Source of the DNA: Polytrichum commune | Lineage: Eukaryota; Streptophyta; Polytrichopsida; Polytrichales; Polytrichaceae | Assembly (NCBI GenBank): GCA_950295325.1 | Contig: OX485803.1 | Location: forward strand, 77,141,554 to 77,205,553 | Direction: 5' to 3' | DNA: 64,000 nucleotides | In this document: piece after piece, positions 8,756 through 39,804 of the stretch | Layout: the number at the start of each line of letters is the position of its first letter | Numbering within the stretch: the stretch's first letter is position 1 | Notes under the pieces: generated by a model | The model's input: the letters and a program-made list of their open reading frames with translations, nothing else | Told to the model about the DNA's origin: nothing | The model's database searches: none | Program-made: the position numbers and the translations under genes

Positions 8756-8756
8756 A

Positions 8757-11149: not shown

Positions 11150-11150
11150 G

Positions 11151-11173
11151 ATGGGGATATTAACTAAAATGAG
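11151..11173 (+). repeat. Left terminal inverted repeat of the 24-kb element
   Basis: 23 bases identical to the reverse complement of 35200-35222. After one mismatch three more bases (CAA) agree. Further in, both ends carry GGGAACGTG-like motifs. Confidence 0.88.
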
Positions 11174-11809
11174 CCAATTGGGCCATTATGAGACAATTCG
11201 TACCGATGGGAACGTGCATTGGGAACGTGGTTCACGAGTAAATACCCGTGAATTGCCATCATTGACAAGGTTAAGAACAAGAGGAAGGTCATCAACATAG
11301 ACTAGGGCACTATTTCATGCACATTGGTGTATATATATAAGCTAAAATAATGCTTATTCTAGCCCACATAAAAACTTAGCCCAGTTGTCACCATGGGTGT
11401 TCACTCGTGACCAACCAACACCCCGCAACAGATGAGCCTAGTATATCCATAATACAACATAAGTCGACACCACTAAGGAACAACCATGCGCATGTCAACA
11501 AATGTATGCAAATATAATGGGTCTAATCATAAAAGCTATCATGGGCACTTAATACTACTCAGAGAATACAAATACATCTAACCACGAGTGAACGCCCGTG
11601 ACCAATCAACGCCATGCAACACACGATGCAAGATCCATAACACATGAAGGAAGGTCTACATGTCATATCCGACTACACAAATGAGAGTCAAAAAATCATT
11701 TGATTGAATCATAGATGCCACAGTGGGCACAAAAAATGTGAACAAAGTATATGAATTGTTGTATCCACGGGTGAACACCCGTGGAAAATCTATCACCATA
11801 AAGGTCCGG

Positions 11810-12394
11810 CTATCTACAAGAGGAGTATGAATCCTTAATCATTTTCAACATCTTGTCATGAGGTTGTCTTTGAGCTATAGTACATTGCTTGCGCTTGACT
11901 TCTTCAAGCCGTTTTTTCTCCTCCATCAAAACTGTAGCTTCTCGAAGTTGTTTCACCCTTGCAACCACGTAATCAGACATGGATGAGGTGGTATTGGGTG
12001 AACTACACCTCCAACATCCAGAACTATTTCCCGAGCCCGTGGGCTCACTGGGGTGAGTGGTTTGGAGAGAAAGGTGTCTCTTCACCCGAGCGCGTGTGAC
12101 CGGACCCGCAACATCGACCGGAACAACCTCCTCAACCGCGACCGGAACAGCCACCGCAACCGCGAGCGCAACATCGCGTGTTTGGAGCATATGTGTCTAC
12201 CACAACAAACGACAAATTCATATTAGAATCCCTGGGATGAAACACAACTAAAAAAATTGGGATTCATGTGGAAAATGAATTACCTTAGGGCATGGAGATG
12301 TCACTTCGGCGAAGTCGGCGTTAGCATCCGGAGGACGTTGTCGACATGGTGAACTGGCAATATAGTTCTTAGGTCGCGTTTGGAATGGGGAATG
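11810..12394 (-). CDS. Small coiled-coil protein gene near the left end of the 24-kb element (3' exons)
   Basis: Two exons join in phase 0. Exon 12394-12284 has acceptor CCTAACAG and donor AAG|GTAATT. Exon 12196-11810 has acceptor GTGGTAG and ends in a stop. The first encodes a Pro/Ser-rich stretch (HSPFQTRPKNYIASSP...). The second encodes an Ala/Val/Pro-rich run, then a basic, charged, helical C-terminus (VARVKQLREATVLMEEKKRL) that looks like a short coiled coil. The first exon was not found between 12400 and 12880. No known family is recognised. It could be a separate accessory gene of the element or alternative 3' exons of the large minus-strand gene just upstream. Confidence 0.5.
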
Positions 12395-12878
12395 CTGTTA
12401 GGATACAATAACATAAGAGTCCATGGAAGAAGGACATTATGTGCAAAAGGAGCCCGTCCGTTGCCCCGTAGTAAAGATGAACATGTTCAAAACATATGAA
12501 TTATAGCCGACTAAGTCCTACATATTAAAATTCGCTATGACAACCATAATTCCCAAAAACACAACTAACATTGTCCAAGTGGCCTGATACATTCATTGAA
12601 TCAACTACCACATTGCCACGGGTGAAGACCCGTGGGACAATGCCAGACATTCACTGTGGTTGGAAATAGTCGGGTATTCTCTAACACCGCAGTGTTGCAA
12701 AGTAGTAGAATCCCAGTGAGATACATTCATGACCATGACATGATTGCATGAAGAAAATCCACAAAACCAAAACAAGTTTCAAATGAAGTTGAAAGGCAAC
12801 AAAGTTTCAGATCCACTCATTTCAAATACAATGTACCGATAGTGCAAATGTGCACTATAGGCGGCCCCAATAGGGAAT

Positions 12879-15800
12879 CTACATTAACATCTGAGCCTCT
12901 GGAACCATACGGGCAGAAGTCAGTATTTTATGTCTAACTAATGATTGCTTATAAATCAGAGAACTTGGCAGCTCTAGATTGAAGGGTCCCTGTCCTGATG
13001 GATAAGGGTTGCTCCCCACAAAATCTGGCACATACTGTTGAGAACTCAAGAGCCTTTGCAGGTAACTATGCACAGTATCCAAGCTTTGGTTTGACATAAA
13101 TGGTACAGGGTTAATGTAGCTCCCAGGAGGGTTTGGGATGCATTTGTAAGGGGAGTCATCAACAAGTAATGTAGTCCTATGACTGGGTTGCTTCGTATGC
13201 GGCACTGGATGCGTCCGGCTCCACTCAAAAAATGCGCACATGTCTTTCATGAAGAAGCTTGAATCAGCATTCATAGGACTAGGAAGAACTTGTCCTCTCT
13301 CATCCTTCAGAGTGTGACACAATTCTTTCCCAAACACATACTCTGGATGTCTACAACCATTGAAGAAGTGCCGGACAATTGGCTGAAGATTCTTCATAAG
13401 CTTCGACGACCAGATGACAACATGGAAGTTTGAAAGAACAAAACGCAGAAAGCGTCCCAGTCCTCTCCTAGGTATGAGGGCACTATATGGTAGAAAAAGT
13501 GGAGCCAACTCCCCAGTTATCTGAGGGCTATGTTGTGATTCAAGAGTCTTCATGGTGTTGACATTGTCGCACTTTGTTGACCTCACCTGGATCCCGTTCA
13601 CATCCAGCACTAACCATATCTTCTCTCTCCGATGGACAACAGTGGTTGGAGAGGTGAGGATCTGGCGATGACAAAATTGAAAGTCATTGTAAAGGATTTC
13701 TATCTAAGGAAAAAGTATATTCTACATGATTTTTATCAAATGAAACAACACGTTGGGTACACATGAGTATGCAAGATAAAAGAATGCCTCCACATTTATG
13801 GATTAGTTTTGCGAGATCGAGTAAAATATCGTACCGAAGGTGGTATTCCGGCAGTGGCTGTATGACCTGTGACCACATGCACACATGACTTATGAGATCC
13901 ACATGCTCAAACCCATAATCTCCCACGGGTGAACACCCGTGGGCACAATATCAAAAGTCCCTTATATAAATATTACTCGAGAGATAACAATTTATATGGA
14001 AATTGAAAAGTATAAACAGGTGGTCCCACGGGTGTTCACCCGTGGGACCAATTGCATTCAAATAACACTATATATGATACCTTGAGCTTGGCTTAGGGGG
14101 GGATCCCCACCATGTGCAGGGTCGTCATGAGAACTCGGTGGAATGACATCCCGTTCTGCCGCAACCAACACCTGTTGCAAAGACACTTTTAGAAATCTTG
14201 ACGACTTTGCTTCCAAGATAAACACAATATAGCATTGGAAAGGGAGTATGTATTACCATTTCGGACGATGCCGGTTGACCCTCAGCAACACGTTCGACAT
14301 GAGGGCTTGAGGACTCCGCAACTGCAACATTGACTTCCCTCCTTGGAGACTCTGGCACTCCAGTAATGTCAATGATCTCCAACGTAGAGTCCACAACACT
14401 GCCGGCTTGAGCGGCCGAGGACCCCGCGAATTGACCTCGTTCATCACGATGTTTGGGAGCTTCGAACGCTGTCCATCTCTTTCTCATTTTCTTTAATGCA
14501 GCGGCATGAAGAATATGTTTCACCTTCACTGCTTCACAAAACGCTGGTGTGGAGAGATAAGCGAACATCTTGTGATAGTCGTACGACTTGTACAAATGCG
14601 CAAGATTCAATCGCACGTTCTCGGGCACATCTACCAAGTATTTGTCCACAAATGGGGCAAAATGCACCTTGTCCTTCCCATCCGATTCCTTGCCCATGTC
14701 AGGTCTCCCAGCAAACACCGGGTGAGGGTCATCAACAAAGTTGAGTTTCACTCTGTTGTACCCAGGCTTCCCATAATCCTCATCCTCGGAATCATCCGTC
14801 ATGTAGTCAGCAAACGTCCCCCGAACCCGATGTGGAACTCGATCTCTCACCTTCACCCTCACGTCTAGTTCTACGCATCTTTCGGGCACATCGTCATCAC
14901 TATCCAAGCATATGACTTCGGTTCGAATAACCTCCTCTGCTTCATTGGATGGTGCCGCTACAGTAGGCTCTTCTGCAACCGCAACACCAGGTGAATCACG
15001 ATTTGATCGCCCATGTCCTAGCACCTCGAGAACGGCAGCGGCAACGTCCTCAACAGGTGAGCTGACGTTCAAATCTGTGCTTGTCCCTTCAACATGCACA
15101 GCTTCAGACATGATTGCATCCCGCGGAACATCCTCCACATCCGCTTGGCCAGATTCAACCTCGCGATAAAGACCAGAATGCTCCGTTGCCTCCGAAGACC
15201 GCGAGTGATCTCCAACTCTAGCAGGACGTAGAGATGACCTTCCCCTTCGAGGAGCTTTCATTTTCTTTCTTGCAGTCGGTTTCGATGCAGACCTTGCAGC
15301 AGGATTAGCTGACTGCGGACGCTCATCCTCCTCATATTCTTCCATAGGTTGAACATCTAGTTGTTCTTGACTTTGTCTAGATGTGTCAAACTGTGCAAAC
15401 CCGCGGCCGGGTGTAGATGGGATCCCAGACGAGAAAGATCCCACAGGGTGATGGACACTGTGCTCGGCTTGTGGACGACCAACTTCCTCTAAGTTGGAAG
15501 CATCCTCTTGCCGCTCCTCCTCACCCTCCCCCTCCCCCTCCCCCACGGGTGAACACCCGTGGGGAACCTGCTCCGGGGACATGGCCTCCAAAGAGGCCTC
15601 CGCCATGGCTGACGCCTTGTAATTGAAGGCCTCCTCCTCCACCTCTGCCATGACCTCAGCCATGGCCTCCGCCAGTACGTCGACCATGACCACCTCCTCT
15701 TCCTCTTCCTCTTCGTCTTCGTCGGCCACTTCCTCTTCCTCCGCAGACTCCCCTAGGACAACAACTGGGTCATCTTCCTCCTCCTCCTCCTCCTCTTCTA

Positions 15801-18800
15801 CGTCCTCTTCATTTGTGTCATTCGCACGCTTTCTTCCAATCTCGCGCTCAATGATGGAATCCACATCGATACGCCCTTCTTCCTCTTCCAAATCCTGGGC
15901 AGCGAATTTTCCTTCCTCATTCCACCTTTGTATGCTCCAGTCAACTGCGGCAATCATCTTCGTCTCCGCCACCTCTAGCATCTCTACCGGCACAATATTC
16001 AACACCTTCATACCCAATGCCTGCAAAAACCAAGGCATGAGATAAATAACTTCTCAATCAAATTAGTCTACATCCAAAAGTGAATAGAATTAAACCAATA
16101 GTCCCAACTATTTGTCAACCAACTAATTGTCAGGAAAGCTATCGAGAAGGTGGCTATCAACCAGGTGGATATAAAACAGGTGGATGTCTAGGCCCACGGG
16201 TGTTCACCCGTGGGCCTCCCAACCTGGTTTATGGTTAGGTTATCCAAAACACCATCCAAACCAACGATAATATTCAGAAATTCAAGAACCACTTAGGGGA
16301 AAAGATGCTCATTACTTACAGGTGCCACTATGTGCGCCTTATTGCCTCCACAAATATTGAGAAAAAAATACCCCTCAAGACATGAAGGCTTGATGATATC
16401 TATGTAGGTCTGCATCCTCAACTCCCCCTTGAATAAACACTTGGCCTCCTCATTGGAATACGCCCTTTTCACTGAATAACGTTTATATCGCCCCGGGTCA
16501 TGGACGTCCAACATCTTCCGGCCTTCACAGAGCCGCACAGCCACCTCCGAACTTGATTCGCCCCTATTGGGAAAAATGCAGTTTGTAACCCGAAGAGCAT
16601 TTGATTCGAAGAAGCAATCGCGAGATGCAATTTTCTCTTCTTTAGTGCCATGGTATAAGGCGTCACAAAATCTGGCGTTGCTCGGAAGGTGCGCCTTCAG
16701 CACATTGTGAATGAAATGCCGATCCGGATATTCCGAAATCACAGTCCACAATTGGGGGGAGTTTAAAATGCCTGGGAAATCACGACGAAGACCTTGCAGA
16801 GTGGAATCCATACACTCCTTCACACGCCCCCCAGTGTCTTTTCCCGCCTGGATTCCGGGGAGAAACCTTGTGTCCATGTAAGCGTGCAGGACTGGTGCAA
16901 GCACTGTCCCACCACTGAATTTGTAGTTGTTGTCAATAGACAACACGACATGCTCGGGTCTAACCTCGGTGTTATGTGTACCTAAAATGTTCCTCACTCC
17001 TTCTTTAAACCGGTCCGGAATAGGTACTCTTTTCCTTGTGGGATTCATAGCGCCAAGAAGGTACTCCGCTCCAAGCTAGTCTACAAGTCGTTCTCGCTGG
17101 AGTTTACCAAACTTATTCGCATACTTCCATACTCTCCAACAATCACGATCAATGGTCTCTTTCTGATCGACGTGAACAATGTACAATGGAGTCGGGTCTA
17201 GACAATGTGCCATCGCGATATAAGTTTCATTCTTCTTTTTCCTGTTCATCGCCCAATCGCGCACAGTCTTCAAGGTATGTCGAGGGTGCTCCTCTCCATC
17301 TCTGGTGGTGAGGATTTGATTCGCTGCCATGTCGAGCTCCATCTTTGTCAAGCCCCGAAATTGTTTCAGGTCGTTCTTGACTACCTTCTTCGACTTAAAT
17401 CCCTTTATCTCTTTCATAAGAGCTCCGGTCTTCGGGTCTACATAGTCACCACTCTCGTAATCCTTGAATATCCGCTCCCACTTCCTCCATATGTCATCGC
17501 TCAATACAGGCAAAATGTGCTCCATGATCAGGTTGGTCTCCTTCTCCACGCGGAACGTCCACATGACGCACGTAATGAATGCCTGTATCAAACACCGGCA
17601 ATGTATCAATCTCTATGAAAAAAACCTCCATGTATTTCTAGCAATCACCAACAACATGATAGTCGCCCACGGGTGAACACCTGTGGGAGTCACAGAAATG
17701 AGAAATTCAAAAGTCACAGGTTTGAAAAATACCTTCCACTTGTTAAAAGCTTCCGTGTTGCTGGCCTTCTCGCGTACAGTTCGGTTAGGTCTTCCTCGCC
17801 GGTCTTCCTCACCTAGCGTGCTGAATGCACTCTGTAAATGACGGAAAGTGCTTCCATACTGCATGAACCATTGCAAATCTGGGCCCAAAACTTCAACATC
17901 GTAATTCACCCGTCTGCCCACACCTCCCGATACTGCAGAAGACAATGCACATGTTAGTACTCAGCATAGCCCAATATTATCACGGATTCTATAACTCATA
18001 TAACATTGACGTGCACATAGGTATTGTGGTTATACCTTTACGGGTTGTTTGCTAGTTCTTGCCATCTCAATTCAAATGAGAGAACACTTCGACACCTCTA
18101 TGTACCTGAATGAAACACCAACTGTCTATCACATGTTTATGTCTAAAACCTTCAAATGCTTACAGAGACACACCAAATTTGTCTACATAGAAAATCCAAA
18201 TGACATTTATCAAACAAAATCTCCCACCCAGGTGAGTGCAAAGGCTCACGGGTGAACACCCGTGGGCACTCCTAACCAGGTGAGGGCAAAGGCCCACGGG
18301 TGAACACCCGTGGGCACTCCTAACCAGGTGAGTGCAAAGGCCCACGGGTGAACACCCGTGGGCACTTTCAACCAGATGAGGGGAGAGGCCCACGGGAGGG
18401 CTGATTTTTCACAAAGTTTAAGCTCGTCCACGTCCAAAAACATTGAATTGAAAGGCGAAAAAATCTCAACCCGTCCCGAAACCGGTAATATCTATACAAG
18501 TTAAATCTCTTACAAGTTGGTACAAAATTAGGAAAAAAGAACAGAAAAAAACGAAGATGTCGACATGTGACCACGGATATGTTAGGGACCTTGTGAAGAA
18601 TCACCACTGCCCACGGGTGTTCACCCGTGGGACTCTCCACCTGGTGAGTGCAAAGGCCCACGGGTGAACACCCGTGGGCACATTCAACCAGATGGGGGAG
18701 AGGCCCACGGGTGAACACCCGTGGGCACATTCAACCGGATGGGGGGAGAGGCCCACGGGTGTTCACCCGTGGGCCTCTCCACCTTGTGGGTGCAAAAGCC

Positions 18801-18965
18801 CACGGGTGAACACCCATGGGCACATTCAACCATATGAGGGGAGAGACCCACGGGTGTTCACCCGTGGGCACTTCAAATTTCCACTTTCAGATAACCGCGT
18901 TCACACTAACAGAAAAACTGGGATTTATGTAATGGACACTCACCAGGGTTCTTTGGGGGGACCAT
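12879..18965 (-). CDS. Seven-exon element gene with acidic middle and C-terminal FCP1/NIF-like phosphatase domain; one in-frame stop
   Basis: Exons, all GT-AG and all frame-consistent: 18965-18944 (start, MVPPKNP), 17932-17733, 17582-16320, 16020-14257, 14171-14081, 13866-13835, 13661-12879 (stop). Total about 1384 codons. Residues ~75-495 match nothing I recognise. Residues ~500-800 are very rich in Glu/Asp. The last ~240 residues resemble the FCP1/NIF group of HAD phosphatases: WLVLDVNGIQV (nucleophile Asp kept, the second Asp of DxDx replaced by Asn), then VVIWSSKLMKNLQPIV, and TLLVDDSPYKCIPNPPGSYI (acidic metal-binding motif). Known family members remove phosphate from proteins such as the RNA polymerase II tail. 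Activity here is doubtful because of the Asn. Codon 243 is TAG (17078-17076), with the frame open on both sides. Palindromes occur in introns 1, 2, 3 and 5 and in exon 4. Confidence 0.7.
15543..15562. repeat. Palindrome copy inside coding exon 4
   Basis: This is a full palindrome copy that is read through as PHGCSPVG in the acidic part of the minus-strand protein. It is the clearest case of a palindrome tolerated in coding sequence. Confidence 0.85.
18246..18867. repeat. Palindrome cluster in intron 1 of the minus-strand gene
   Basis: Nine full or near-full copies, plus one half copy at about 18389-18396, lie in the ~1-kb first intron (17933-18943). They are often spaced 47-48 bp apart (18246, 18294, 18342; 18611, 18658, 18705, 18753, 18800, 18848). 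The spacers share ACTCCTAACCAGGTGAG-like text, so the array grew by tandem duplication of a ~48-bp unit. Confidence 0.9.
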
Positions 18966-19293
18966 GTCAAAATTCTTTCAATACGAATGTGGTTTCCTGC
19001 ACAAAACAAAACACAAGAGCATTTGTTTCAAACTATGCCTACATGTGCAATACATTCATACTCTCAAACATCTCAATAGGTAAATTCTGCCCTCACATTC
19101 TTCTTGCATTCTGGTCTCACATTTTTATGAACATAACCTCTTGTCATTCATCTTGCATTCTGATTTGAGCGTTTTTCTCACATTTCAATCAACTCTTCAC
19201 ACCCAAGCATCACACAACTCACATGCAAATCTCTAGTATTTATGGGTTTGAAATTCTTCAAGCAATTCAAACCCTAGTGCACCAGAAATTTGA

Positions 19294-19401
19294 AATGCAA
19301 GCAAGAGGAAGAATGCAAGCAAGAGGAAGAATGCAAGCAAGAGGAAGAATGCATGCAAGAGGAAGAATGCATGCAAGAGGAACAATGCAAGCAAGAGGAA
19401 G
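19294..19401. repeat. 18-bp minisatellite, six units
   Basis: The unit AATGCAAGCAAGAGGAAG is repeated six times with few changes. It lies upstream of the minus-strand element gene. Confidence 0.9.
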
Positions 19402-19779
19402 AATGAAATTGAAAGAGAAAGCAAAAGAGTGAAAGAGAGTGCAAAACATTGAAAGAGTTCAGAAACTTACAAGCTTGTGGGTTCTCAATTCTTCATGATT
19501 GGAACTTCCTTCCACTTGCTTCAAGGTCGCCTTCCTCTTCTCCACATCTCACCTCTACCACATGCTGGATTGAGCAAGAAACAACTATGCTCACCAAGAA
19601 ACTATCACATATTCCAAGAAAATGCACACTGAATCTATTCCAGGGTTTTCTTGAGAAGAGAATAAAGACAAAGAGTACAATAATTGAATGAAGAGAAGAG
19701 AATGAAGAGAATGAAGAGAAGCAAAGCAAGTTCAGAATTGTGGGAGAAGAGTTTTGCAAGAGCATTCCAGAAAAGTGGA

Positions 19780-19855
19780 GAGTGGTGAAGGAAAGAGAGA
19801 AAGAATTGGGAGAGGAGAATGAGAGAGAGAGAGAGAGGGAGAGAGAGGGTGCGAA
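19780..19855 (-). promoter_or_regulatory. Likely 5' leader region of the minus-strand element gene
   Basis: On the minus strand this is a CT-rich tract that includes (CT)n at about 19823-19848, a common feature of plant 5' leaders. A good acceptor (TTTTGTGCAG) precedes the first coding exon near 18996, so a 5' untranslated exon upstream is expected. No clear TATA box was identified. Confidence 0.35.
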
Positions 19856-20029
19856 ATGTTGCCATAATGACGAGCGGGTGGAAGTCGCATGACACATAAT
19901 GCCTCATTAGTACGAAGGGACATGATGGAGGAAATCTCGGGACGCGAAGAGATATGCGATTTGGCGGCTAAAGTACGTTTTGAGGAGGGATGGGCGGTAT
20001 GATGGTATTAGGACGTAGCGATAAAAAAT

Positions 20030-20290
20030 TATTGGTACTTTGTAAGGTTCGCCCTATTGGTATGATAATTATTAGTACTTAGTAAGATATCTAAGTATTA
20101 GTGAGACAATTATTAGTACTTAGTAAGATATCTAAGTATTAGTAAGACAATTATTAGTAATTAGTAAGATAATTGCGTATTAGTAAGATAATTATCAGTA
20201 CTTAGTAAGATAACTCATATTAGTAAGTTCATTATTAGTACTTATTAAGATAACTCATATTAGTATGATTGATATTACTTTTATTGTTAG
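20030..20290. repeat. AT-rich tandem repeat (TTAGTACTTAGTAAGATA)
   Basis: About six imperfect units of roughly 30-45 bp built around ATTATTAGTACTTAGTAAGA. Confidence 0.8.
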
Positions 20291-21931
20291 TAAATTGTCA
20301 TATTCAATCTATTGTTAATATTAGTAAAAATGATTTATAGTGATTAATAGTAATTACCAGTAATAGTAACTAATAGTAACTAATAGTGACTAGTAATGAA
20401 TAATAGTGAATGCTAGTGCTTCATAGGTCATTATAGTCATTAATAATGTTTAATAGTGATTAATAATTATGAATTACTAATGGCTGACTAGTAGTGATTT
20501 ATAGTAATAATAATAATCACTTTCAATCGATAAATGGTAATAGTATTGATAATGCTTAAAATAGGTTCATATTATAACATAGATTCCATACTTTAACATT
20601 CTACTCTGTAACATAGATTCCTATTATAACATACCAAAGTCAATTGCACATTCTCATAATATGCGTGTAAGATGCTCAATCGCGCTTGACATCAAGCATA
20701 GCTATGATTTCCAATTCCTTATTGATGAAGTCGTGAGCATCCATAATAGGCCCACTTTCACCATAGCCCATGAACTCAAGTTCGATTGTTCTCTTGTTTT
20801 CTCTTGGACTATGAACCATTAGAGTTCCAAGAATTCAAAATTTTAAATATAACATATATTATGGCAAAGAAAATAATGGCATGACATAAGAAGCGGCCAT
20901 GGATACTTATAAAGCATCAAAGTTGCTGGCCATTAGAAATCATCACACATAATACTTGCCGCGCATAATGGGTACATGCCCACCTCCCATACCCAATAAA
21001 CCCTACTGGATAGGTAAATACTACTAGGAATGAACATAAATCGTTTAACATAAAAAAAAAATTTAGGCAATTTTAGCATAAATCTCTTTGTGGCTTTGCC
21101 CTCACCCCCATGCATTGAGAATCACTTCATAACTTGGTTTTAAAGTCATTCTCCTAGCGTTTATTCTTGTAATTGTATCTTAAGTTATATTATTACTAGA
21201 TTCATTATGTGCTCTTCATTGGCTAAGATTTTTGACGTTCATAGTCGACATCTAATATGAACACACATGCTTGCGATAACACAAATTCAAGAATGACCTT
21301 CTCAAAGGCACTAGAGTTATCATTTATCCCACTCAAATTTTTGGGTGGGGGTTGGTTGTTTTGCATGCAACACATATGGACTTAGCCAAAATTAGCGGTC
21401 AACTAAAGAGAAAGGACTTTGGAAACTAACATATTGAAGTACAAGGTGATATGCAAGGCCGTGGGAGACATCGGAATCGAAATCATATTGAGAGGATGAC
21501 AAAGGAGGTGGCCAACGAGTGGGCCACATCAAGCACCACATGAATCTCGAGCAATATTAAGATTGCATCTCCATAACCATACCTCATCGATTAAAGGGAA
21601 TTCTAAATGATGGCATAAGATTTACGGAAATGAGAACTTGAATAGGAAATGGGTCAAACACTTCAATGAATGAATTCATGTAAATCATGTGTACTCTATG
21701 AATTGAATGGTTTGTGGAATCTCGTAAAGATACTTTAGCGAGGAGTAGGTTAGGAATACATAAAGTCTTGAGACTCTTTCAAATTGAAATATTGAAATAT
21801 AATTGAATAGAGGAAGAATAATAAGTAGGTCATTCAATCCATGAAAGAGATAAAAATAACTCCATAAGTTATTAGAGATGAGAATGATTTACATGCTTGA
21901 ACACTTAGCTTTGACATTAATGTCTTAGGGA
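20291..21931. other. AT-rich spacer in the centre of the 24-kb element, no gene
   Basis: The part at 20291-20570 is made of TAGTAAT-like simple sequence. The remainder has no supported coding region. Confidence 0.4.
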
Positions 21932-23260: not shown

Positions 23261-23859
23261 CTTAGGGAACATCAACTTGAATTCTAAAGGCACTGACTCA
23301 CTTAAGAATTATTGGACAAGGATATCATATTGAGATTGGAAATTAGTAAACATATGATCACAGATCCTCAACATAGTTCACATGCCAACCCATACCCCAT
23401 TGTATGCCAGACTATCTCTTCATATGTGAACGCTACATGAGGTATAACTTAGAGCCATGTCATGATGATGGATGAGTTCATCCATTGACCTTCTCATGTT
23501 AGCAACTTGTGATGCAACATTGTCATGGATGATTGCTATATTGTCTACTGTGATATAGTGATAACATACATGTTCATATTAAACGGTTTTGTTAATTCCC
23601 ACTACATTCCCAAGGGTAAGATACTTAAGCTCACTATTGGCAAGTGTCATGTGTTTCATTTTAATATTTAAGAGGAATACATCCTTAAGCATACTAATGG
23701 CATGTCATGTCAAGATTTTAATAAGTGCACTCAAACACCCAGTGTCATGTGACGACACTTACGGTGTTGTTGTTAATCTGCAATATAACATAGCATACCC
23801 TTCAAAATAGGGGTTTCCATTACTGTGGGTTTTTCATTTGTATATTTGGATGAAAATCC

Positions 23860-24420
23860 AATGTAAGGCAAGGAAAGTACAATAATATTACAGTGGGCCA
23901 CACTAAAAATGAACAACAGGACTTAGAATAATATAAGGTATCAAAAATGGCAATGGACATCTTTAAAGTACTATAGGGTATGGAAGAATATGTAATTTGG
24001 AATTATATGAAATGCAAGGCTTTTTCTATTAACCCAAGGTTGAAAATGCTAATGAAATAAATAACCCTAAACCCTAAACCCTAAACCCATTAGTGTGGTA
24101 GTCCACTTAGTGTTGGACCTTACTAGTTGCTCGCCATCTATTTGTGTCCTACTCATATGCAATTAGGAGTCTAGTAACAACTAATTCTCTTTTATCGCGC
24201 ATCCATGTGCAAACAACCACTATTTTATATGGGGTTATTACTTTCAATTTTTTTCTTCACATGCTATGATTATGTAGTTTTCTTAGTTGGGTTAGTAGAA
24301 AAGGGCCTTGCATTAATTACAAATCCAAATAATCGATTTGTTCCATACCCTATAGTACTTTAATGATGCCCAGTGTCATTTTTGACACCCCATATTATAT
24401 TTGCTTTAACATGGGCGGAC
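23860..24420. repeat. Inverted-repeat element with telomere-like motif in its loop
   Basis: The forward arm 23870-24060 (ATCTTTAAAGTACTATAGGGTATGG region) is repeated inverted at about 24240-24420. (AAACCCT)n lies at 24063-24087 between the arms. Relatives are at 27760-28023 and 29783-30131. Confidence 0.75.
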
Positions 24421-24422
24421 GT

Positions 24423-25280
24423 TAAATACCCCCTCACGAACTTTTGGAGGTATCTAATCTGGGTTGGGGCAATCTTGTAGAGAAAATTTCTAAACCCGAC
24501 CAAAAATTGCATTCTTGAAGGCCGCTTGACTACAAATCCCATATTGAGTGCACTAAAATCCGCTTGACTTACCATAAATAACTTATATTTGTCATTCTAA
24601 TGATAGATTAGTGCAAGTGTTTATAAGAGAATAAGGTATAAATAAATGATATGTTATTTGGAATTAGACTCGTGGGACAACGTTATGGATGGGGTATATA
24701 TTACTGAGAAAATCATAAGTTTCTGACTATAGCCTATCTGAATTATTTAATAATTTATCCTCATCACATATTGTATTATCTTTCAAATCACATAGTGTAT
24801 AACCGTTACTTTTAAATAAATATAATTATATGATACTAATACTAATACTAATACTAATACTATTATGCAAATACTAATAATAACAATACTAATACTAATA
24901 TTGAATTGAGTTTTTTAGTTCACCAATTTATCATAAGGTGATATATATTATTGTGCCATATTACAAATGTTTGAACAATCACACATGTGCAAAATAAATG
25001 AATTATGAACAAAAAGATGTCTATGACAACACTTCATAATTATATATTGCACACATTGATATCTTACAATATTTATCAAAATAACCATGTGAAATTCAAA
25101 GCCACATCATGGCCTTGGAAACATCTCATGGGAGGTTGGAAAATAGGCTTAGAGCATCCAAGGCCACATCATTGCCCCTTGCCAACTAATTAATATTTAT
25201 AAAATAACTATGAGGGAGAAAGTAGGTCTTACATGCCAACTCGGAGGTATTTCACTAAAGTAAGCTCCATCCGAGCTTCT
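24423..25280. repeat. Dispersed repeat related to 37438-38050 and to the foldback arms
   Basis: 24480-24560 matches a stretch of the foldback arm (AAGGCCGCTTGACTACAAAT). 24650-25250 matches 37438-38000 in the same orientation, for example AGCCACATCATGGCCTTGGA. A tract of ATACTA repeats lies near 24833-24895. Confidence 0.7.
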
Positions 25281-27759
25281 TGATGGACTCATCCGATTTT
25301 TGTTACCGGATGACTTTACTTGAGTGCCACGAATCCCCGGCCATTTCAAGTGGGCTTGTACGGTTAAGGTATTTGTTGACTTTCATATTTACGGCCTCGA
25401 ATGTCCTTCCCAAAGTGCACATCTAAGGGTACTCATGTAAGTATAACCATGCTATCACATAGAGCCTTATTATAACCTAACATAGTCAATCGCACACTCT
25501 CAAAATATTTTCGGTCATTGTAGGGTCGATAGTGCACATGGATTGACAACCTAAGTACCAAAGTACTAAATTTGAGCAACAACAAATCCCACATGGATGC
25601 AACATCTATGGCTACACGGTCCAAAATTGAGCTTTTATATTCTCCTTAAAGGTGATTTCAAAAATACTTTATGGCAAGTCCACAAGTCATACCCATGGAT
25701 TGGAGCATGACATTATGGAAAGGTTACTTAAAGGTTACTCAAAGGTATTTGACCCCGATTTTAAAGAGTAGTTTAATAATCTCTAAATAGAAATCTCTAG
25801 TCCTATTGTTACCAATGCTTTCGACTTCCCCTCCCTTGGTCTCCCTCCCCTCAGTAGATGTTGTATTGAATCATCCCATGATACCTACCTATGGTGCAAC
25901 AATTAGAGTTTATTGCATTGAGTACTGACTGTTGTTTTGAGAGCTCACATGCTACATAACTAAATAAATTCATTTTTTATTTTAGCAATTAGTTAAAAAA
26001 GACAATTAGTTAACAATTAGTTAACAAAGATAATAAATTTATTTTTTTTATTTTTTTTCCCAAAGCGGGTCACGGGGGCTTATGAGTGGGGCTATGTGCG
26101 TACATGCACATGAAGGTTTTACAGGGGCATGGGCATATGGTTTGCAAGGGTTAATGTATGTGGTTGGGTTCATGCAAGATATGAACCCAAAATGATTCAT
26201 ACGGACTGGTGTAATGGGTCAGGATGGCACATGCCCAAACTAATAAGGTATGTGGGGCTCATTGATAGTTGTAGTTTGAGGAGGGAAACTTGACTAGCTT
26301 GGTATTCTAGCACATGGAAATTGATTTTCATTTGAGCGGAGAAACCTTGGTTTTTATATACATTGTTAGTGTGAACCATAATTTGTTGTATTTACATTGA
26401 GAGCTCATGATGCCATGTTCTTACTATTCAAACCTTGCCCAAAGTTTTCTTAATTTATGGAGATTTTGTTTTTCATTTTTCTAGCATCCCATGATTAAAA
26501 ATCAATCAGTCTAGTCAATCAACAACTAAAGTGCGTCAGTACAAGGATGGCCACGTTTCAACTTGTGTTTTGGGCAACGAGCCGAATCTGCTACCCCCCC
26601 CCCCCAACCACCATTGCCACTCCACATGGGAGTGCTCAGTCCAAAAGATGCTTGAAGATACCGGCAAAACCTTCACCAACGTCAGAGAACTCTATTTTGT
26701 TTCACCAAAACGATTGGTACATGAAAGTGTGCCCTAACTTGGGCTAGACTAATTTGGGGTCAATTCAACTAAATAGGGTTTCCAATAAACTTTGAAAAAT
26801 AACCTCCTTACTACATACTAGTTTAAAGTTTCATTGTTGGATGAATGAGAGTAATATGCTCGTATGCGATAATCCCATTTCGTTGGCCAAAAAAAACATT
26901 GATATGTATATAGGGCCTCACATTAGAAGCCCAAGCCCTTGAGGATGTAAATGCTATCACAAATTCCCCATGCGTAGGCAAAGCCTATCAATCCGAGGGC
27001 AAAGACAAGAAAACTTGCTCACATACAAGCACACCCAACATTCATCCAAAAACATTTTATTTAAAAATTCAATTGGTTTGACACCGTAATTAGCTTCAAA
27101 GTTACGGAATTAGTCTAAACCAAGGGGGTTTAGTTTTATATTTTCTGTCGGATCGATGAGAGGTACTCTTGAATGTGAGGTTTTTCTCCACATATGGAAG
27201 AGCACATCCTGAAAAGGGGAAGAAATTTTTATTAGGAAAAATTGAGTATGTTTGCTCTATAATGTACATGAGTTTGGGGGTGGTGGGGGGGGGGGGGGGG
27301 CTCATTATAGGGCTTATTGCCTTCCTTTTGGAAGCCGGGCTATGTTGGGTGCAACTATCTATTTGGGGCATCCAAGTTTGGGAAGAGGGGGTTGACATTG
27401 CAACCATTGTATCTCATTGCATCTATTAAGGGGTTGTATGTGTTTGTTTTGTATTGTTGTTTCAATGTATGTGTTGTGGCATAAGGTTTAGGTTAAGGAG
27501 TATATGTCCTCTAGCTGCATTGGGAGTTCCAATCACACACGTGGTGTCCAAACTAAGTCTACCCAAACATGTGCATTATCCAAGGACATGTCAAATGATT
27601 GGAGTCGCGTTTTTCTACAGCCTTGTCGATCGGTCAACCTTAAGCCATCATTTCGACATGGGATCTCAAAACGGTCATCCAAAGGGCATAAGTGGTGGGC
27701 CCATAAGTATATAGCGTAAAACCTAGGAAGTGCAGCTAGAAATGTAGTGGACACATACC
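25281..27759. other. Repeat-derived spacer, no gene recognised
   Basis: Only short frames without recognisable features are present. It contains a C run (26596-26608) and G runs (about 27273-27300). Confidence 0.4.
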
Positions 27760-28023
27760 GGGGGGGGGAGGGGGTTGTGATGTATTGGAGTAGAAATATA
27801 CGTGCGAAAAATTGAGAGGGTATATGGGGACGTAAAATGAACAAAATGATTTAGAATAATATAGGGTGTCAAAAATGGCGTTGGACATCTTTAAAGTACT
27901 ATAGGGTTTGAAATAATAGGTAACTTGGAAATATAAGTAATGCAAGGCCCTATCCTACTAACCCAGAGCTGAAAATGCTAAGGAAATAAATAACCTTAAA
28001 CCCTAAACCCTAAACCCTAAATT
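27760..28023. repeat. Arm of the G-ended repeat family ending in telomere-like repeats
   Basis: Begins with a G tract, then TTGGAGTAGAAATATACGTG, and ends in (AAACCCT)n at about 28000-28020. It matches the reverse complement of 29880-30130 and the forward arm at 23870-24090. An (AT)n/(TATG)n microsatellite follows at 28116-28185. Confidence 0.7.
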
Positions 28024-28115
28024 GGTTTATAAATGGATCAACATCTCTAGCATAGTGCTATAAATTTGATGATTTTCCCCAGTGTAAATAGGGCATTGAC
28101 GCCCGAGTTGGCCAC

Positions 28116-28150
<35 letters not shown>

Positions 28151-28185
28151 CATACATACATACATATAGACACACACACACATAT

Positions 28186-29782
28186 TTGTGGCAAAGGAAC
28201 TCTATGGTATGTTGCTACATGTCCAACATCATGATTGATAGAATGACAAGTGATGCTAAAAGATGAAAAATGGGTTGTGCAAATCAAAGAGGTGCCATGA
28301 AAATGGACTCTCTCTCTCCCTCTCTCTCTCTCTTTGGTGGCATTTTGCATGTTTCAGTCAATACATGCAAATTCATTTTGAAACATGTGGCGCTTTCAAG
28401 TCAAAGATGGATTAACCCTAGGCTTGAGCTATTGGGAGAAGGGTCGAATTGTCAAATTGTGTATAATGCCATAGTAGGAGTCTAGGTAGGTATTGAGTCA
28501 TCACATCCTATATCATACTATTAATGGGGGTGGGCGAGGCAAGGTTGTGGCAAGTTGACAAGGCTGGGCATGGTCACGAATCATTGGTGCTAAATTTGAG
28601 GTCACATGAGAAAGTTATTAAATGGGCATCTTGGATAACTTAACTTGATAAAACCACCACAAGCCATTGTGAACCGTTGATGATGAGGTTGAGGTTGTTT
28701 GGGAAGAGTGTTCAACAATCATCTTGGATAACTTAACTTGAAAAAACTGCCGTGAACCATCGGGGTTTAGGTTGAGTTTGAGGTTAAGGTTGAGATTGTT
28801 TGGGAAAGGTGGTCCACTTAACTTCATAATTATAAATTCAAGGTTTTATGTTTTGATGTAATAATTCTCAATGGTCATCTACGATAACTTAAGTACATGA
28901 TTGTGACCTTAGGGTTTTGATGTTTAATGTTTCAAAGTCGTGAACAAAACCAAGAGGTTTATAAAGGAAAGTGACACATACTCCTTTGGTAAGATGAATC
29001 CACAAAAGTGCAAACTCAAATTCATGATTTAACAAAGCAATTTAGCGATAGGTTCTTCCAATTTCATTGGAAATATGAACCAAGTTCATTATTTAAACAA
29101 CCAATTTCAGTACATGTTGTGAACAATTTCATGATTTGGTACCCATATTCAAAACTTCACAAAATCAATTTTAGGAAATGCATAACTCTATTTCACAAAG
29201 AACATTACATCATGTATAGGATTATCCTAGTAAACAAATTGCTCCCTATTCCGCACAACTATACACTACACTCCAAAAACGTTATGCGCTTTGCTCACGC
29301 TACCAACACTCTTCCCATAATCAAACCCCCAACTACACTACGTACACTCTCAAGCCCATGAGATTACGCACTCCAACTATGTTGGGTATGAGTTGTTTGC
29401 TTTGATGTACAATAATCAAAGACCAAAGGAAAAATGACATTGCTTGCTTCTAACTCCAAGGTAGTGTAATGAAGACCAAAGAAAATTTGACATCAAGGCT
29501 AGAGGCTTCCAAGTAAATACAAAACAATGAGAAGGCAAAGAATGCGAAATGAGGCGGCGAGAATTTGAGAAATAAAAAAACCATAAAGTGTGAACTTGAT
29601 ATGGAAGATTCACAAAGTTGATAAAGATAAATGTCCACTATCATGAAATTGAGGTGTGCCACATGTCAAGTCGGTTAAGAAGAATGATCATGGGGATACA
29701 ACAAAACATTTGCTCATGAACTACAACATTGGACAATGGGGTGGAGCGAGGCAAGTTGACAAGGCTAGGAAAGTATAAGTAT
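28186..29782. other. Spacer, no gene recognised
   Basis: Contains short CT and AT simple repeats and two copies of a CATCTTGGATAACTTAACTTG motif (28625 and 28720 regions). No coding region is supported. Confidence 0.4.
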
Positions 29783-30131
29783 CTTGGGGGGGGGGGGGCA
29801 GTGTGTTAAAAAGTTAAGGATATAGGTGCGAACAACCACTATTTTATAGGGGGGGTGTTACTTTCAATTCTCTTATTTTTCTCACAATGATGCTATCATT
29901 ATGTAAATTTCTACTTTGGGTTAATAGAAAAATGGCTTGCATTACTTATAATTCCAAATTACCTATTATTCCATACCCTATAGTACTTTAAAGCTGTCAA
30001 GTGTCATGGTTGATACCCTATATTACTCTTAACTCCATTTATAATTTTTAGCCCCCATGTTTTAAAATACCCTATCATTTGTTCGCACGTATATTGCTAC
30101 TCCAACCAATGACTACCCCCCCCCCCCCGAG
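29783..30131. mobile_element. 349-bp MITE of the G-tract-ended family
   Basis: The ends are CTTGGGGG and CCCCCGAG. Flanks are ATAAGTAT (29775-29782) and AGAAGTAT (30132-30139), a 7/8 match consistent with an 8-bp duplication. The internal sequence is shared with 24190-24420 and 27760-28023. Confidence 0.65.
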
Positions 30132-30139
30132 AGAAGTAT

Positions 30140-30775
30140 ATGAAACTATTCCGAAGTTGCAACACAATGGGCCACAATGCTAGTTGCTCTAAAAGGAGCA
30201 GGCTAGTGTTGAGCTTCAAACCTCGAATTTGGGTGCAATCATATTCCCAAATTAGACTGCAATCATGAAAGATAATAGTAGCTTTGACCGGGTTATCCTT
30301 GCACCTTGCCCACAAAATAGGCATCCTATTCACAATTATAAAATATAAAGGAACTATAACTCTGGTGAGAGAATCCCATGTGGTTGTTAACTCTTGCGGA
30401 TGAAACAATACCTAACCTTCATACTATTCATTTTGCAAGGGTGCCCATCATAAGTGGTGGACCTGTTATGTGTGCACATGTCCTTATGTAATTTTGGCAT
30501 GAGTATGCTTGGTAGTGGTATGAGGTGTATGCAAAGGTTACACAATGATCATTGGTACCGCAAAGACTCTCCTTCGCCTTGTAACAAATTTTCACTCCAT
30601 GTACATACGATGTAGAACCCCACTACCGAAGGTCATCATTATTTAATATGAGGAAGGTTAGAACGTGATTAGCTAATAGCGATAGGAATTGGAGGGAATG
30701 ACGTCTATGTACTTACGAATTTGGAGGGAATGCCTTGTATTTCCTCATGAGAAGTTGATGGCCATGCTCACGACC
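30140..30775. other. Upstream region of the plus-strand element gene
   Basis: No coding region is supported. The last ~150 bp probably hold the promoter of the plus-strand gene. Confidence 0.4.
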
Positions 30776-30784
30776 TATATAAAG
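30776..30784 (+). promoter_or_regulatory. TATA box of the plus-strand transposase-like gene
   Basis: TATATAAAG, followed by a pyrimidine-rich leader (TTTCTTTCTCCTC) and the first ATG at 30854. The spacing fits a start of transcription near 30810. Confidence 0.6.
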
Positions 30785-30853
30785 GCCACCATTTGGAGGG
30801 TCATTTCTTTCTCCTCATTTGAGTCCACCCCCCTTCACCCTTGAGGAGCAACC

Positions 30854-33800
30854 ATGGAGAGCGTGCCTCACATGAGTGAAGAGGTTGGTTTTATAACCCC
30901 AATGTGCATCCACTTTCCCACGGGTGCACCCGTGACAACACTCTGGCCGTACCCCTCCTGTACGGCCAGTTTGCCACGGGTGTTCACCCGTGGGAGACTC
31001 TGGCACCCGGTTTGGGGCCCCCACGGGTGTTCACCCGTGGGAGCTTATGGTTTTTATTTCGGTTATCCTAGCATATGTCAGAATAGAAGTTATCCATATG
31101 CTCATGTGTGTGACAAACTTTCTAGTAGTAGATGTCAGCATGGTAGCCTCCCACGGGTCAACACCCGTGGGAGAATCCGGCACCAGCATGGAAGCCCCCA
31201 CGGGTGTTCACCCGTGGCAGTTCATGATTTGTATTTTAGTTCTCCCTACATATGTGTGGTTATAAGATAGGCATGTATCATGTGTGTGACATACTCAATA
31301 GTTGTATATGCAATTATGCTTATTTGTAAATTTCCTGCTGAGTATGTGAAATATGTTGTCAATGGGTAATTGGTACATATTATTACGAGTTGGGAGTTTC
31401 GTGATGCATTATGATAAATGATGACGATGATATTCGTTAAACTAGAATGTTGACACTATCCTGAATGGCAACTATTTCGCTAGCACTTGGGCCAGCAGAT
31501 GTGACACCTACATGCATAGTAATAATTGTACACAAGTAAGTGTTAGGGGTGATAGTTTTGGTGTTTGGGCTTTGTGGAAACTGGTAATAAGGGTCATTCT
31601 CCCAATGGGGATATGATAAGTAACACATACTTCACTTGAGTTGTGTGAAGTGAGGTGTAGAGCTCACCCCTATATGAATGTAAATATTCTGTTGAGATGT
31701 CAATGTTGTCCCCCACGGGGGAACACCCGTGAGCTTCTGGTCAATGTGTGTTGACATACTTTGATATCGATGTTCAGATTCCACATTACATTGGACTGTC
31801 GAGGACGGACTTGAAGGGGAAGGCCGTTGTGCTCTTTGATGATGAGGGCCATGCTTTGTGTGATGGATTGATTTGCAACACAAATCCGTTGGATTGTGTT
31901 GACAATAGCATCCTAGGGGCTGAGGATGTTGGAGTTATTATCTTGAATCCAACTGACAATGTTATTTCGCGGGATTGGGAGAATACGCTGCACCGATGGC
32001 CACTTTCACTCACCAAATTTGAAGGACATACATTAGCGGAAATATTGTTGGTCCATCATAATGCGACCCGCGAAGTTCAAAGTCATCGGCGCTTGCTTGG
32101 AAAACGCCAATACAACACTGTGAGGATGTGTGCACCTCGGCCACCTGGGAAGAAAATTTGGGGAGCCACTGAGGAGCATGCGCGGATGTTATCAGCGGTG
32201 GATTGTTGTTCCGAGCATTGTTGCCAGGTATTCCCAAGGCCTTTGTTGATGAGTATTCGGGAACACTACTTCGCATTGCCATTCAATGCTCGGAAGCTCA
32301 TAGCCCTGTCGGTGTTCCAATCGATCCAGAAACATGAGCACAACGGACGTGAAATGGTGCAGTTGGAAGGGAGAACAATATGCACTCGAGCATGGATGAA
32401 CATCTATATGATATCAAGGGCACAATATAATAGGAACAAGGCTGAAAGCTTGATGGGGGTTAGATCTCGAGATCATGGAAATACAGGAACTAGAAAACCA
32501 CGGGCGAATACAGTGCAAGCACGAGCCACCCTTGGAGTATTGGTTGAGGGTAGGGCGGGCGCCATGCCCCATATGACTCGGACTCTTCCAACTGGTGAGA
32601 AGATAGGGACGGAGATGCTCCCTGTGGGAACAACGTGGTGCAACCTATTGCAGGAAGTGAACAACTTGGACGGAGACCTAGGGTACACGCCTATCTCCAC
32701 GTCCACCTTCAGCCGCCTACATCGACAACATTTCAAGCAGTATGTTATAAAGAGCTCCGGCGACAACTTCTCGCGTTGTGGAACTTGTGCAGCATTCAAG
32801 GATTTGTTGCGAATACACACAAAGAACAAAGCTGGTCACTTGGCCATCTCGAATGCTAGCCTTCGTCATCTAACATTGCAGGAGGCTCATAGAAACAGTT
32901 ACTATAAAGATAGGATTTTGTCAAAGTATGCTCCCAATGAGGTGCTTTGTATAATCCATGACAAAATGGATTATGGGAAAACGGCTCTTCCCGTCTTCGC
33001 GCACAAAAACAAACGTGTTGACAAATACGAGCGATTCCCCATATCCATTGCGGGGATGATTGCACATGGTCACTCAGATGTGAATTATGCGCATTATGTC
33101 CTTGATATGTACCCATCCGATGCCAACTTCACTATCACCTCGATGATGAAGTTTTTTTGTCAACTTGAGGTACAACCTGTTTGCTCTAGTAGACACATTC
33201 CGATTTCGTCCATAGGTGATCCTTTACACGACGCATTGGTGGTTGGTGTAGAGAAGTGTTCAGGAGTACTTCCCTTGCCACCGCCCGCAAGTATTCCTCC
33301 TACAGGTTTGCCACCCCTCCTCCTTGTTCAAATGGACAATTGTGCGAAGGACAACAAATCAAAATACAACATGTTGTTTTGGTCAGCTCTGACTGCAAAG
33401 GGAAATTTTCGGGAAGTCAGGGTGTCTTTCCTTATTGTTGGACATACGCATGAGGATGTGGATGCAATGTTTGGGAGGTTTGGACAAAGGTTGAAGATTG
33501 AGGATTGCCATACACTCCCAGACCTCATGGCATCGTTCATGGCTGCTGGGGAACCCACTATTGTCCCGTCCTTAATCCACGAGGTTGCAGATTTCAAGGA
33601 ATGGGTGAAGGGATACTACAATGAGTATGGTCAAGATCGACTTATTGGGCATTCCAAGGCGCACCAATTCCGTTTTTATGTAGATCCTCAAGGAGTGCCA
33701 TTGATGCAGTACAAAGTGTATTGTACAGATCCAAGTTGGGTGCTTGATGGAGGAATTGCTCTTTGGAAGGTGGACCCTATCACAAAGAAGACCATGGTCC

Positions 33801-34727
33801 CAACAGGTTACTGGGTCCCTTGTTTGTATTGCTTTGGAAGTGCACTAGAAAAAACATGGTGTGAAGTATGTGGCCCACGGGTGATCACCCGTGGGCAGTT
33901 AGTCCGTGGTATTGCTCCGAGCTCATTGTATGTTTGTTTTTGTAGGGTGCCCCCGTCCCGTTCCAAAAAGGGAGATGAAAGATTCCGTGAACATAAAGCT
34001 TGGGGTGCAAGGTTTTATTAAGTATTGGAAGGATACGGCAGATCAAGATAGTTCGGGTCAATATATGGAGTCCATTGCACCAACAATTTTATATTGGGAG
34101 AATGTGCTTGCGGCTATGGATCAACCTTTACTCCCAACTCCATCTGAACTTAGCGAGCCATTCTGGCCAGCTACACGGTTCTCCATTGCACCAACCCTCC
34201 ATGTGGATAATGTGCATCTACTTGAGGAAAACATCACTGATTATGCTTACGTGGGGCCAGCTAGTTCTCGACCTGTTGAGACCTTCCGTCCCGGCGCACA
34301 TATCAGGGTTGGCCATTATGTGTTACTACATCCTAGTGAGGATTGTCCTAATCCAGTGTGGATGGGACGAGTGATTTCTGAGCCGAATTTGGCACATATC
34401 GGTCCTAATCCTCGTTCCATTGAGATTGTCTTTTATGTACCGGTCCTTGGCCAAAGGAACAAGAAGACCTTAGACGAACGTTATGAGGAATGGGACACGG
34501 CAAAATCTTTTCGATGGACGAGGCTCAAGGACTATGCACCACAACATCAATCCCTAGATTGTGTTGTGGCATCATGGGCAAGACAAAGGAATGCGTCCGA
34601 TGACAATGTTCTCATCCCAGCTCGGCAAATTCTTTTCGCAAAGGATAATTTAGATCGATGCACTAGAGGTGAGAAAATGACTGATGGAGATACTTTCGAG
34701 GATGGGGTACCAACAGAAGACCTCTAG
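30854..34727 (+). CDS. Probable DDE/DDD-type transposase of the 24-kb element
   Basis: The main exon is open from ATG 31748, or from acceptor TTCAG at 31777, to about 33865. An upstream exon 30854-30883 (MESVPHMSEE, donor GAG|GTTGGT) joins in phase 0 at 31778, with an ~894-bp intron holding six palindromes. Numbered from 31748, it has SRCGTC (possible zinc ligands), HDKMDYG (Asp 405/408), LVQMDNCAKDNK (Asp 530) and VGHTHEDVDAMFGRF (Asp 570/572). This spaced D, D, HTHED set is typical of a widespread eukaryotic family of unclear function (I believe the DUF7869 type), thought to have an RNase-H-like transposase fold. The last part (about 33946-34727, with VGHYVLLHPSEDCPNPVWMG) is in another frame across a short intron holding a perfect palindrome. 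The strong donor GAA|GTATGT (33866) with acceptor at 33945 breaks the frame. The weaker donor at 33861 keeps it. Confidence 0.7.
30918..31217. repeat. Palindrome cluster in intron 1 of the plus-strand gene
   Basis: Five copies (30918 short, 30974, 31021, 31151, 31198), with a sixth at 31713, lie in the proposed first intron. The ATGGTTTTTATTTCGGTTAT and ATGATTTGTATTTTAGTT text after the pairs shows duplication of a ~180-bp block. The arrangement mirrors the minus-strand gene. Confidence 0.88.
33875..33894. repeat. Perfect palindrome copy in a short intron of the transposase-like gene
   Basis: CCACGGGTGATCACCCGTGG is fully self-complementary because the spacer is AT. It lies inside the ~80-bp intron candidate (33866-33945). 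Confidence 0.85.
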
Positions 34728-35199
34728 ATTAAAGTTGCCTTGCTCATTCCTGGGTATCTACGGGTGGACTCTCATGGGTGGGCTAGATGGTTGACACCAT
34801 CTAGCATGTTTGGAGCTCAATTTTAATTTTGTGAGCATTAATTAGAGAGCCGTAGACATTGACATTTGTCCCAAGGATGTTCAAACTACCACTTTTAAAG
34901 GCATCTTTTTTTGTGAATTTTCATGTGCATTGTCATATTAGCCAACATGTTTAATATGTGGGAGTCGTCCAATGTCGTCCAATGTTTAATAGTCCACGGG
35001 TGTTCACCCATGGAGTGTAGGCACAATCCTTTTTGTCTTCCTTGATGGGATCCTCCATATTACAATTGATTGTTTGCCCGGTTTCATTGGAACACTTGGT
35101 TTGTGGAGGCTAAAACCTCTACGGGTATTCTCTCGTACAAAAAAATCAATCATTGCGTTCCCATCACGTTCCCCACATTAAAATGAGCGGACCATTTGT

Positions 35200-35222
35200 C
35201 TCATTTTAGTTAATATCCCCAT
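35200..35222 (-). repeat. Right terminal inverted repeat of the 24-kb element
   Basis: Reverse complement of 11151-11173, 23/23 identical. It is followed directly by ACT (35223-35225). Confidence 0.88.
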
Positions 35223-39652: not shown

Positions 39653-39804
39653 TAAGTTACACCCTTCATTGTTCGCTTGTTCTTCAAGTTACAGTGTCTC
39701 CTCACCCATAACTGATACAGTGAATGTGCAAGCGTCCTCTTCACTAAGGTAGACGGGTCTTAAATGGTTACTTTTCCCTAGTAAGCCCCCTTCTCTTCGA
39801 GGGG

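Follow-up and report, generated by a model that had tools for sequence, protein, structure and literature searches.

What occupies the 24 kb between positions 11150 and 35222 of a 64-kb stretch of Polytrichum commune DNA (contig OX485803.1, positions 77,141,554 to 77,205,553; hereafter the window), and does it belong to any described kind of mobile element? A first-pass annotation had taken this unit for a DNA transposon of an unfamiliar type. Our analysis indicates that it is probably a cut-and-paste DNA transposon whose superfamily is unmatched to any described, in which one gene (gene 2) would encode the transposase and another (gene 1) an accessory protein binding a palindrome repeated within the unit.

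A discrete element with inverted ends and an empty target site

The unit at 11150-35222 is a discrete DNA transposon with inverted ends, a 3-bp duplication and an empty paralogous site (coordinates of all features are given in Table 1). Its terminal 23-mer, ATGGGGATATTAACTAAAATGAG, has only two matches in the window at no more than 3 mismatches (0.00 expected), and these are the perfect inverted repeats at the two ends; the repeat can be extended to 34 nt at 91%. When the two flanks were joined with one ACT and compared with a paralogous stretch at about 35570-36360, the alignment ran without gap through the insertion point, with ungapped blocks of 93%, 96% and 89% identity and a gap of about 160 bp farther left than the insertion point. 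The empty site is a paralog inside the same window, not a site in another accession. The perfect ends, the ACT duplication and the uninterrupted target described by the first-pass annotation are all borne out, and the unit carries the marks of a terminal-inverted-repeat DNA transposon: paired inverted ends, a target-site duplication and a matching empty site. The terminal letters of the unit are (G)ATGGGG, and the 8-mer GGGAACGT has three exact occurrences in the 64 kb, every one at the ends of the unit. Neither the 23-mer nor the palindrome described below had a match in viral contigs, where the absence of the 23-mer says little.

A DUF7869 protein as candidate transposase

Both predicted multi-exon genes of the unit are directed outward, as had been claimed; the exon borders of both are predictions. 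The three predicted exons of gene 2 read without break into a 946-aa product that matches the Pfam family DUF7869 (PF25273) with an E value of 8.7e-45 and 153 bits, against a curated cut-off of 26. Searches found 91 relatives, three of them at 87-94% identity and many at about 40%. The named ones come from Physcomitrium and Ceratodon (32-41%) and from Riccia (26-33%), and the gene 2 protein has in common with these moss and liverwort DUF7869 proteins the Pfam family, 26-41% identity and the same conserved residues.

In a 67-row alignment of gene 2 proteins, D395 and D520 were present in 67/67 sequences and D560 and D562 each in 65/66 (numbering of the 676-residue piece encoded by exon 2). The conserved stretches around these acidic residues read IHDKMD, QxDNxxxDNKN and GHTHEDID. 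The residues would resemble a DDE/D triad, their order and spacing being those expected for an RNase H-like transposase. A family scan of 35 gene 2 members found DUF7869 in every one, and no transposase family among the 22 families listed for them to an E value of 10. One scanned member gave a match to a resolvase helix-turn-helix (E 0.23). The family PF26133, a precomputed tag on some distant gene 2 relatives, was not reproduced in three that we rescanned and was not used.

Genome contigs gave three loci (L001-L003) out of 74 stretches, with a 36% relative on L001; these loci are fragments in bacterial bins and presumably eukaryotic contamination. Viral contigs compared with the gene 1 and gene 2 alignments gave 54 and 70 pattern-matching stretches, respectively, of which none was confirmed.

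A palindrome private to the unit

The 20-bp palindrome CCACGGGTGNNCACCCGTGG occurs 25 times in the window at no more than 3 mismatches (0.02 expected in shuffles). All copies lie in 11391-35013 and the rest of the 64 kb has none, which confirms the private palindrome family of the first-pass annotation. Two pairs in intron 1 of gene 2 stand at a distance of 47 bp. The centre of the palindrome falls in predicted coding sequence in 1 of the 25 copies, while the coding share of the two gene arms is 58%. With arrays collapsed to 16 clusters, one of which is coding, the binomial probability is 2e-5, a value that assumes uniform placement and ignores the constraint on coding sequence.

Signature peptides that read-through of the palindrome would encode were found in 8 of the 53 relatives of gene 1 (7 with a strict pattern) and in 0 of the 91 relatives of gene 2, where 0.12 hits are expected per shuffle of all 144. 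The intron 2 palindrome lies at the same position in the window and in the relatives P0129 and P0132. Because the peptides recur in relatives and the intron 2 position is the same, the palindrome is an old property of the family. L001 has no palindrome of the kind found in the window. At 111-137 of this contig, filed in a cyanobacterial bin, a 27-bp palindrome, CAGTTTAGCTCGACTCGAGCTAAACTG, lies about 400 bp upstream of the distant DUF7869 open reading frame, and palindromes specific to other families may exist.

Gene 1, a large and broken partner gene

Gene 1 has seven predicted exons running from 18065 down to 12879, with GT-AG borders and splice phases that are consistent from exon 3 onward. 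Its copy in the window is broken: exon 1 is split between frames, exon 2 lacks about 365 residues present in relatives (counted by eye) and is frameshifted, and exon 3 contains a stop. Judged from these breaks, the window copy is at least partly dead, with gene 2 reading intact. Relatives of gene 1 were collected with exon 3 (24 proteins) and with P0115 (34 rows) as queries; five, P0115 included, were in common, giving 53, and they include uninterrupted pieces in public contigs. For P0001, a relative of gene 2, and for P0092 and P0132, relatives of gene 1, the longest contig listed has 30,922 bases in each case; since these lengths are equal, relatives of the two genes probably share one contig.

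Exon 7, which joins the rest of gene 1 in phase, carries the match to the NIF/FCP1-like phosphatase family, and gene 1 had no other match to a named family. The usual motif of NIF/FCP1 phosphatases is DxD; exon 7 reads D-V-N at this position, so that phosphatase catalysis is doubtful. The sequence VVNGQHTLAAC in exon 2 had suggested a ParB/DGQHR-like DNA-binding protein through the resemblance of its NGQHTLAAC motif. This reading was rejected after Pfam, NCBIfam, PHROGs, PADLOC, solved structures, plasmids and phages returned no such match (profile-profile comparison was not run); the exon gave only scattered weak matches to unrelated families. Between the gene 1 stop and the left end, a stop-to-stop open reading frame of 128 aa (11810-12196) has weak Pfam matches (E values of at least 0.025) and is perhaps an additional exon or gene.

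A histone H3-like tail at the start of gene 1

The N-terminus of P0128, a relative of gene 1, is MARTKQTARK, whose residues after the methionine are residues 1-9 of mature histone H3; the sequence then continues as GITTVPMCTSML. A methionine that precedes alanine is normally removed, which would expose ART at the N-terminus, the situation found in H3. In the window, an in-frame stop lies immediately upstream of the ATG, and exon 1 is divided between two frames, one giving MART and the other QTTRK, and is followed by GITTIPMCTSML. The continuation of P0128, GITT.PMCTSML, matches intron 1 of the window in the same register; P0128 is thus an open read-through of intron 1. Among 15 relatives, eight continue in exon 2 with V[SP]GG, close to STGG in H3; the others begin later or differ.

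Comparison with known transposons and alternative explanations

The soybean CACTA element Tgmt* is 20.5 kb long, duplicates 3 bp of its target and repeats inverted motifs in its subterminal regions (PMC2613891). Large size, which the first-pass annotation had counted as setting the unit apart from plant classes, is consequently not distinctive in itself. The Polytrichum unit shares with the CACTA plan the 3-bp duplication, the inverted ends, a length above 20 kb and repeated inverted motifs near the ends, as well as products that would serve cutting and, as proposed, motif binding (PMC2613891). It differs in ends without CACTA, in the DUF7869 family, in palindromes throughout its introns and in the H3-like tail and NIF-like domain of its second gene. 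The ends are neither CACTA nor CACTG, and a Pfam scan gave DUF7869 as the sole strong match, with none to Transposase_21/TNP2; membership in CACTA was rejected on these two grounds. PIF/Harbinger elements usually target TTA/TAA. They resemble the unit in their 3-bp duplication, inverted ends and DDE/DDD transposase (the triad of the unit being putative) (PMC2213677), and were discarded because the target here is ACT, not TWA-type, and DDE_Tnp_4 gave no match. VANDAL elements have duplications of about 9 bp and absent or weak end repeats, and the MULE/VANDAL group was set aside given a 3-bp duplication and the lack of a MULE domain. The first-pass annotation was right that the termini are unlike those of CACTA and that the proteins match neither the CACTA nor the Harbinger transposase models. 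Its broader claim of an unfamiliar type holds for a discrete element whose proteins match neither set of models; it does not hold for size, and the middle of about 12 kb may be nested or accumulated.

That the unit might nevertheless be a highly diverged CACTA (En/Spm) element, keeping the same plan while transposase and ends drifted past recognition, agrees with the plan and size of published CACTA elements (PMC4158355, PMC2613891). We consider it improbable in view of the (G)ATGGGG ends, of DUF7869 in all 35 gene 2 members with no Transposase_21-type model among the families listed, and of a palindrome that is spread through both gene arms, introns included, rather than confined near the ends. 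An equally slight chance is given to a non-autonomous or composite unit, with ends from one transposon and two genes gathered from another, mobilised in trans. The palindrome-free middle and the broken gene 1 would fit such an origin. Speaking against it, the palindromes, counting two degenerate ones, begin close to each end and reach into the two genes, introns included, and a single contig appears to hold relatives of gene 1 and gene 2. Plant transposons do capture pieces of genes, and the H3-like first exon could be an accident of this kind, a host H3 piece serving as promoter and start codon with no function as a mimic; its exact occurrence in a single gene 1 relative would be in keeping with this. 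We find this account rather unlikely, as the protein begins precisely with the H3 residues, the short exon is recognisable in two diverged copies, and the next exon continues close to H3 in the relatives noted above.

Several observations weigh against the interpretation of the unit as a new type of transposon with a palindrome-binding, H3-tailed partner protein. The G at 11150 has no counterpart at the right end, which is unusual. Once the first 23 bp are removed, the 300-bp ends align with a score of 72, equalled by 1 of 200 shuffles, and so are only weakly alike past the repeat. When L001-L003 are added in a wider alignment of 35 rows, D395 alone is invariant, with D520, D560 and D562 at 90% or more, and sequence searches of solved structures with gene 2 found no relative and no transposase. 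For gene 1, profile and sequence searches gave no convincing DNA-binding domain; the NIF match of exon 7 comes from Pfam alone, with none in solved structures, NCBIfam or PHROGs. The broken gene 1 also means that the window copy offers no evidence of present activity. As to the tail, phmmer aligned the start of P0128 to histone H3 of PDB entry 7uqj with an E value of 0.92 because the match is short (12 residues). The exact tail occurs in 1 of the 53 gene 1 relatives and 1 of the 144 proteins searched, most of the others having sequences that start after exon 1. An H3-identical tail at a free N-terminus is found in P0128 only, from a predicted start, and the window exon is frame-broken.

A proposed mechanism

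The likely reading remains a transposon with two proteins, whose closest counterparts in function are TnpA/TnpD of CACTA and VANC of VANDAL. The DUF7869 protein of gene 2 would act as the transposase, cleaving the element at its 23-bp inverted ends and inserting it with a 3-bp duplication. Gene 1 would encode a large accessory protein that binds the palindromes, which lie close to both ends, ahead of gene 1 and within introns. Once bound, this protein may draw the two ends to each other or maintain the element's activity, a role played by TnpA for Spm/CACTA or by VANC for VANDAL elements. In VANDAL21, VANC21 binds a short motif that is dense in non-coding DNA upstream, within introns and at the termini (PMC5735166). 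Our unit likewise has a short element-specific motif, mainly in non-coding DNA and often in tandem arrays. Its counterpart in VANDAL21 is bound by a protein of the element; unlike the palindrome, the VANC21 motif YAGTATTAY is non-palindromic (PMC5735166). It is from this distribution and from the CACTA plan (PMC2613891) that we would assign cutting and joining to gene 2, palindrome binding to gene 1 and an action on chromatin to the H3 tail.

Displayed on the chromatin of the element, the H3-like tail would most likely engage or distract host readers or writers of H3, and might in this way counter silencing. More tentatively, and with some reserve, we suggest that the palindrome-binding protein carries a free H3 tail (A1-K9) as well as a domain resembling a Pol II phosphatase. 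Non-coding DNA of the element would then be covered by false H3 tails, and the element could in this way escape or redirect host chromatin silencing. Histone mimics such as influenza NS1 and G9a have a short peptide like the H3 tail in a non-histone protein. The tail described here differs in being encoded by a transposon, in standing at the very N-terminus and, in one relative, in its exact residues 1-9.

Features of the unit, its middle and the neighbouring sequence

Table 1. Coordinates of the features of the Polytrichum commune unit in the window.
Feature	Position	Strand	Basis
Left ACT duplication copy	11147-11149	.	equals right copy; single ACT at empty paralog
Unpaired G, junction of left ACT and left repeat	11150	.	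sequence
Left terminal inverted repeat, ATGGGGATATTAACTAAAATGAG, 23 bp perfect	11151-11173	+	sequence match
Two GGGAACGT subterminal motifs, left end	11208-11228	.	sequence
Degenerate palindrome CACGAGTAAATACCCGTG, near left end	11233-11250	.	compared by eye with 20-bp palindrome
18 copies of CCACGGGTGNNCACCCGTGG (at most 3 mismatches)	11391-18867	.	pattern scan
Gene 1 exon 7, NIF/FCP1-like phosphatase domain	12879-13661	-	PF03031 E 4.5e-8; splice phases agree
Gene 1 exon 6	13835-13866	-	GT-AG borders and phase; predicted only
Gene 1 exon 5	14081-14171	-	splice prediction; resembles P0106 end by eye
Gene 1 exon 4, acidic region and conserved segment	14257-16020	-	relatives, splice phase
Gene 1 exon 3, conserved core, one in-frame stop	16320-17582	-	relatives, splice phase
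Gene 1 exon 2 remnant	17733-17932	-	comparison with relatives
Gene 1 exon 1, histone H3-tail-like, frame broken	18036-18065	-	comparison with P0128
Palindrome arrays, 47-48 bp spacing, upstream of gene 1	18246-18361 and 18611-18867	.	
Palindrome-free middle	18868-30853	.	pattern scan, open reading frame list
Gene 2 exon 1	30854-30883	+	predicted
Five palindromes, gene 2 intron 1	30974-31732	.	pattern scan
Gene 2 exon 2, DUF7869 protein with D395, D520, D560/D562	31778-33806	+	Pfam, alignment
One palindrome, gene 2 intron 2	33875-33894	.	pattern scan
Gene 2 exon 3, terminates at stop	33946-34728	+	predicted
One palindrome, between gene 2 and right end	34994-35013	.	pattern scan
Degenerate palindrome TACGGGTATTCTCTCGTA, near right end	35120-35137	.	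by eye
Two GGGAACG motifs, right end	35156-35173	-	sequence
Right terminal inverted repeat, 23 bp perfect (reverse complement of ATGGGGATATTAACTAAAATGAG)	35200-35222	-	sequence match
Right ACT duplication copy	35223-35225	.	equals left copy
ACT, empty paralogous target site	36148-36150	.	alignment of joined flanks

The stretch free of palindromes extends over about 12 kb (18868-30973). Five stop-to-stop open reading frames of at least 120 aa touch the middle, the longest of 166 aa, and in 2-kb bins the G+C content is 0.33-0.40 at 20-30 kb versus 0.40-0.52 in the gene arms. The middle also contains poly-G/C runs, a stretch 74% related to one outside the unit, and a long inverted repeat (27762-27974/29908-30128; arms of about 213 bp, 77%, with poly-G/poly-C termini), of which partial copies lie at 23903-24398 and which is possibly a nested element. 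The telomere-type repeat CCCTAAA forms short runs at 24063-24088 and 27992-28021, within repeated sequence. The middle may consist of nested insertions or accumulated DNA, and the core element would then be nearer 12 kb.

Elsewhere in the window, an inverted repeat at 452-976 and 1230-1754, with 525-bp arms 99.8% identical and a spacer of about 250 bp, is a foldback-type element, with relatives of 74-79% at 37998-40373. A TIR-NB-ARC-LRR resistance gene occupies 54889-62945, with its TIR domain at 62097-62945, NB-ARC and a Roq1-like winged helix at 60805-61968, and an LRR open reading frame of 1380 aa that contains 228-bp tandem units (55634-58179). Just outside the transposon, at 8715-10137, lies a partial duplicate of this gene made of LRR and winged-helix pieces, whose aligned blocks match parts of 58516-61234 at 93%, 88% and 86% identity.

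Significance

DUF7869 proteins are annotated solely as being of unknown function, and our search of 5.39 million papers found none naming the family. In further literature searches, among them one on histone mimics and transposons, with subscription papers mostly outside their scope, none of the matches listed had a title or abstract opening that reports an element with DUF7869 or an H3 tail encoded by a transposon, and we know of no earlier counter-silencing device with a transposon-encoded N-terminal H3 tail. For DUF7869 proteins the unit provides a setting of ends, target duplication, empty site and partner gene, and with it a basis for transposase tests. If the proposed role of gene 1 is true, counter-silencing by an H3 tail that a transposon encodes at a true N-terminus would be of a new kind, and the link of this tail to a private palindrome makes the idea directly testable.

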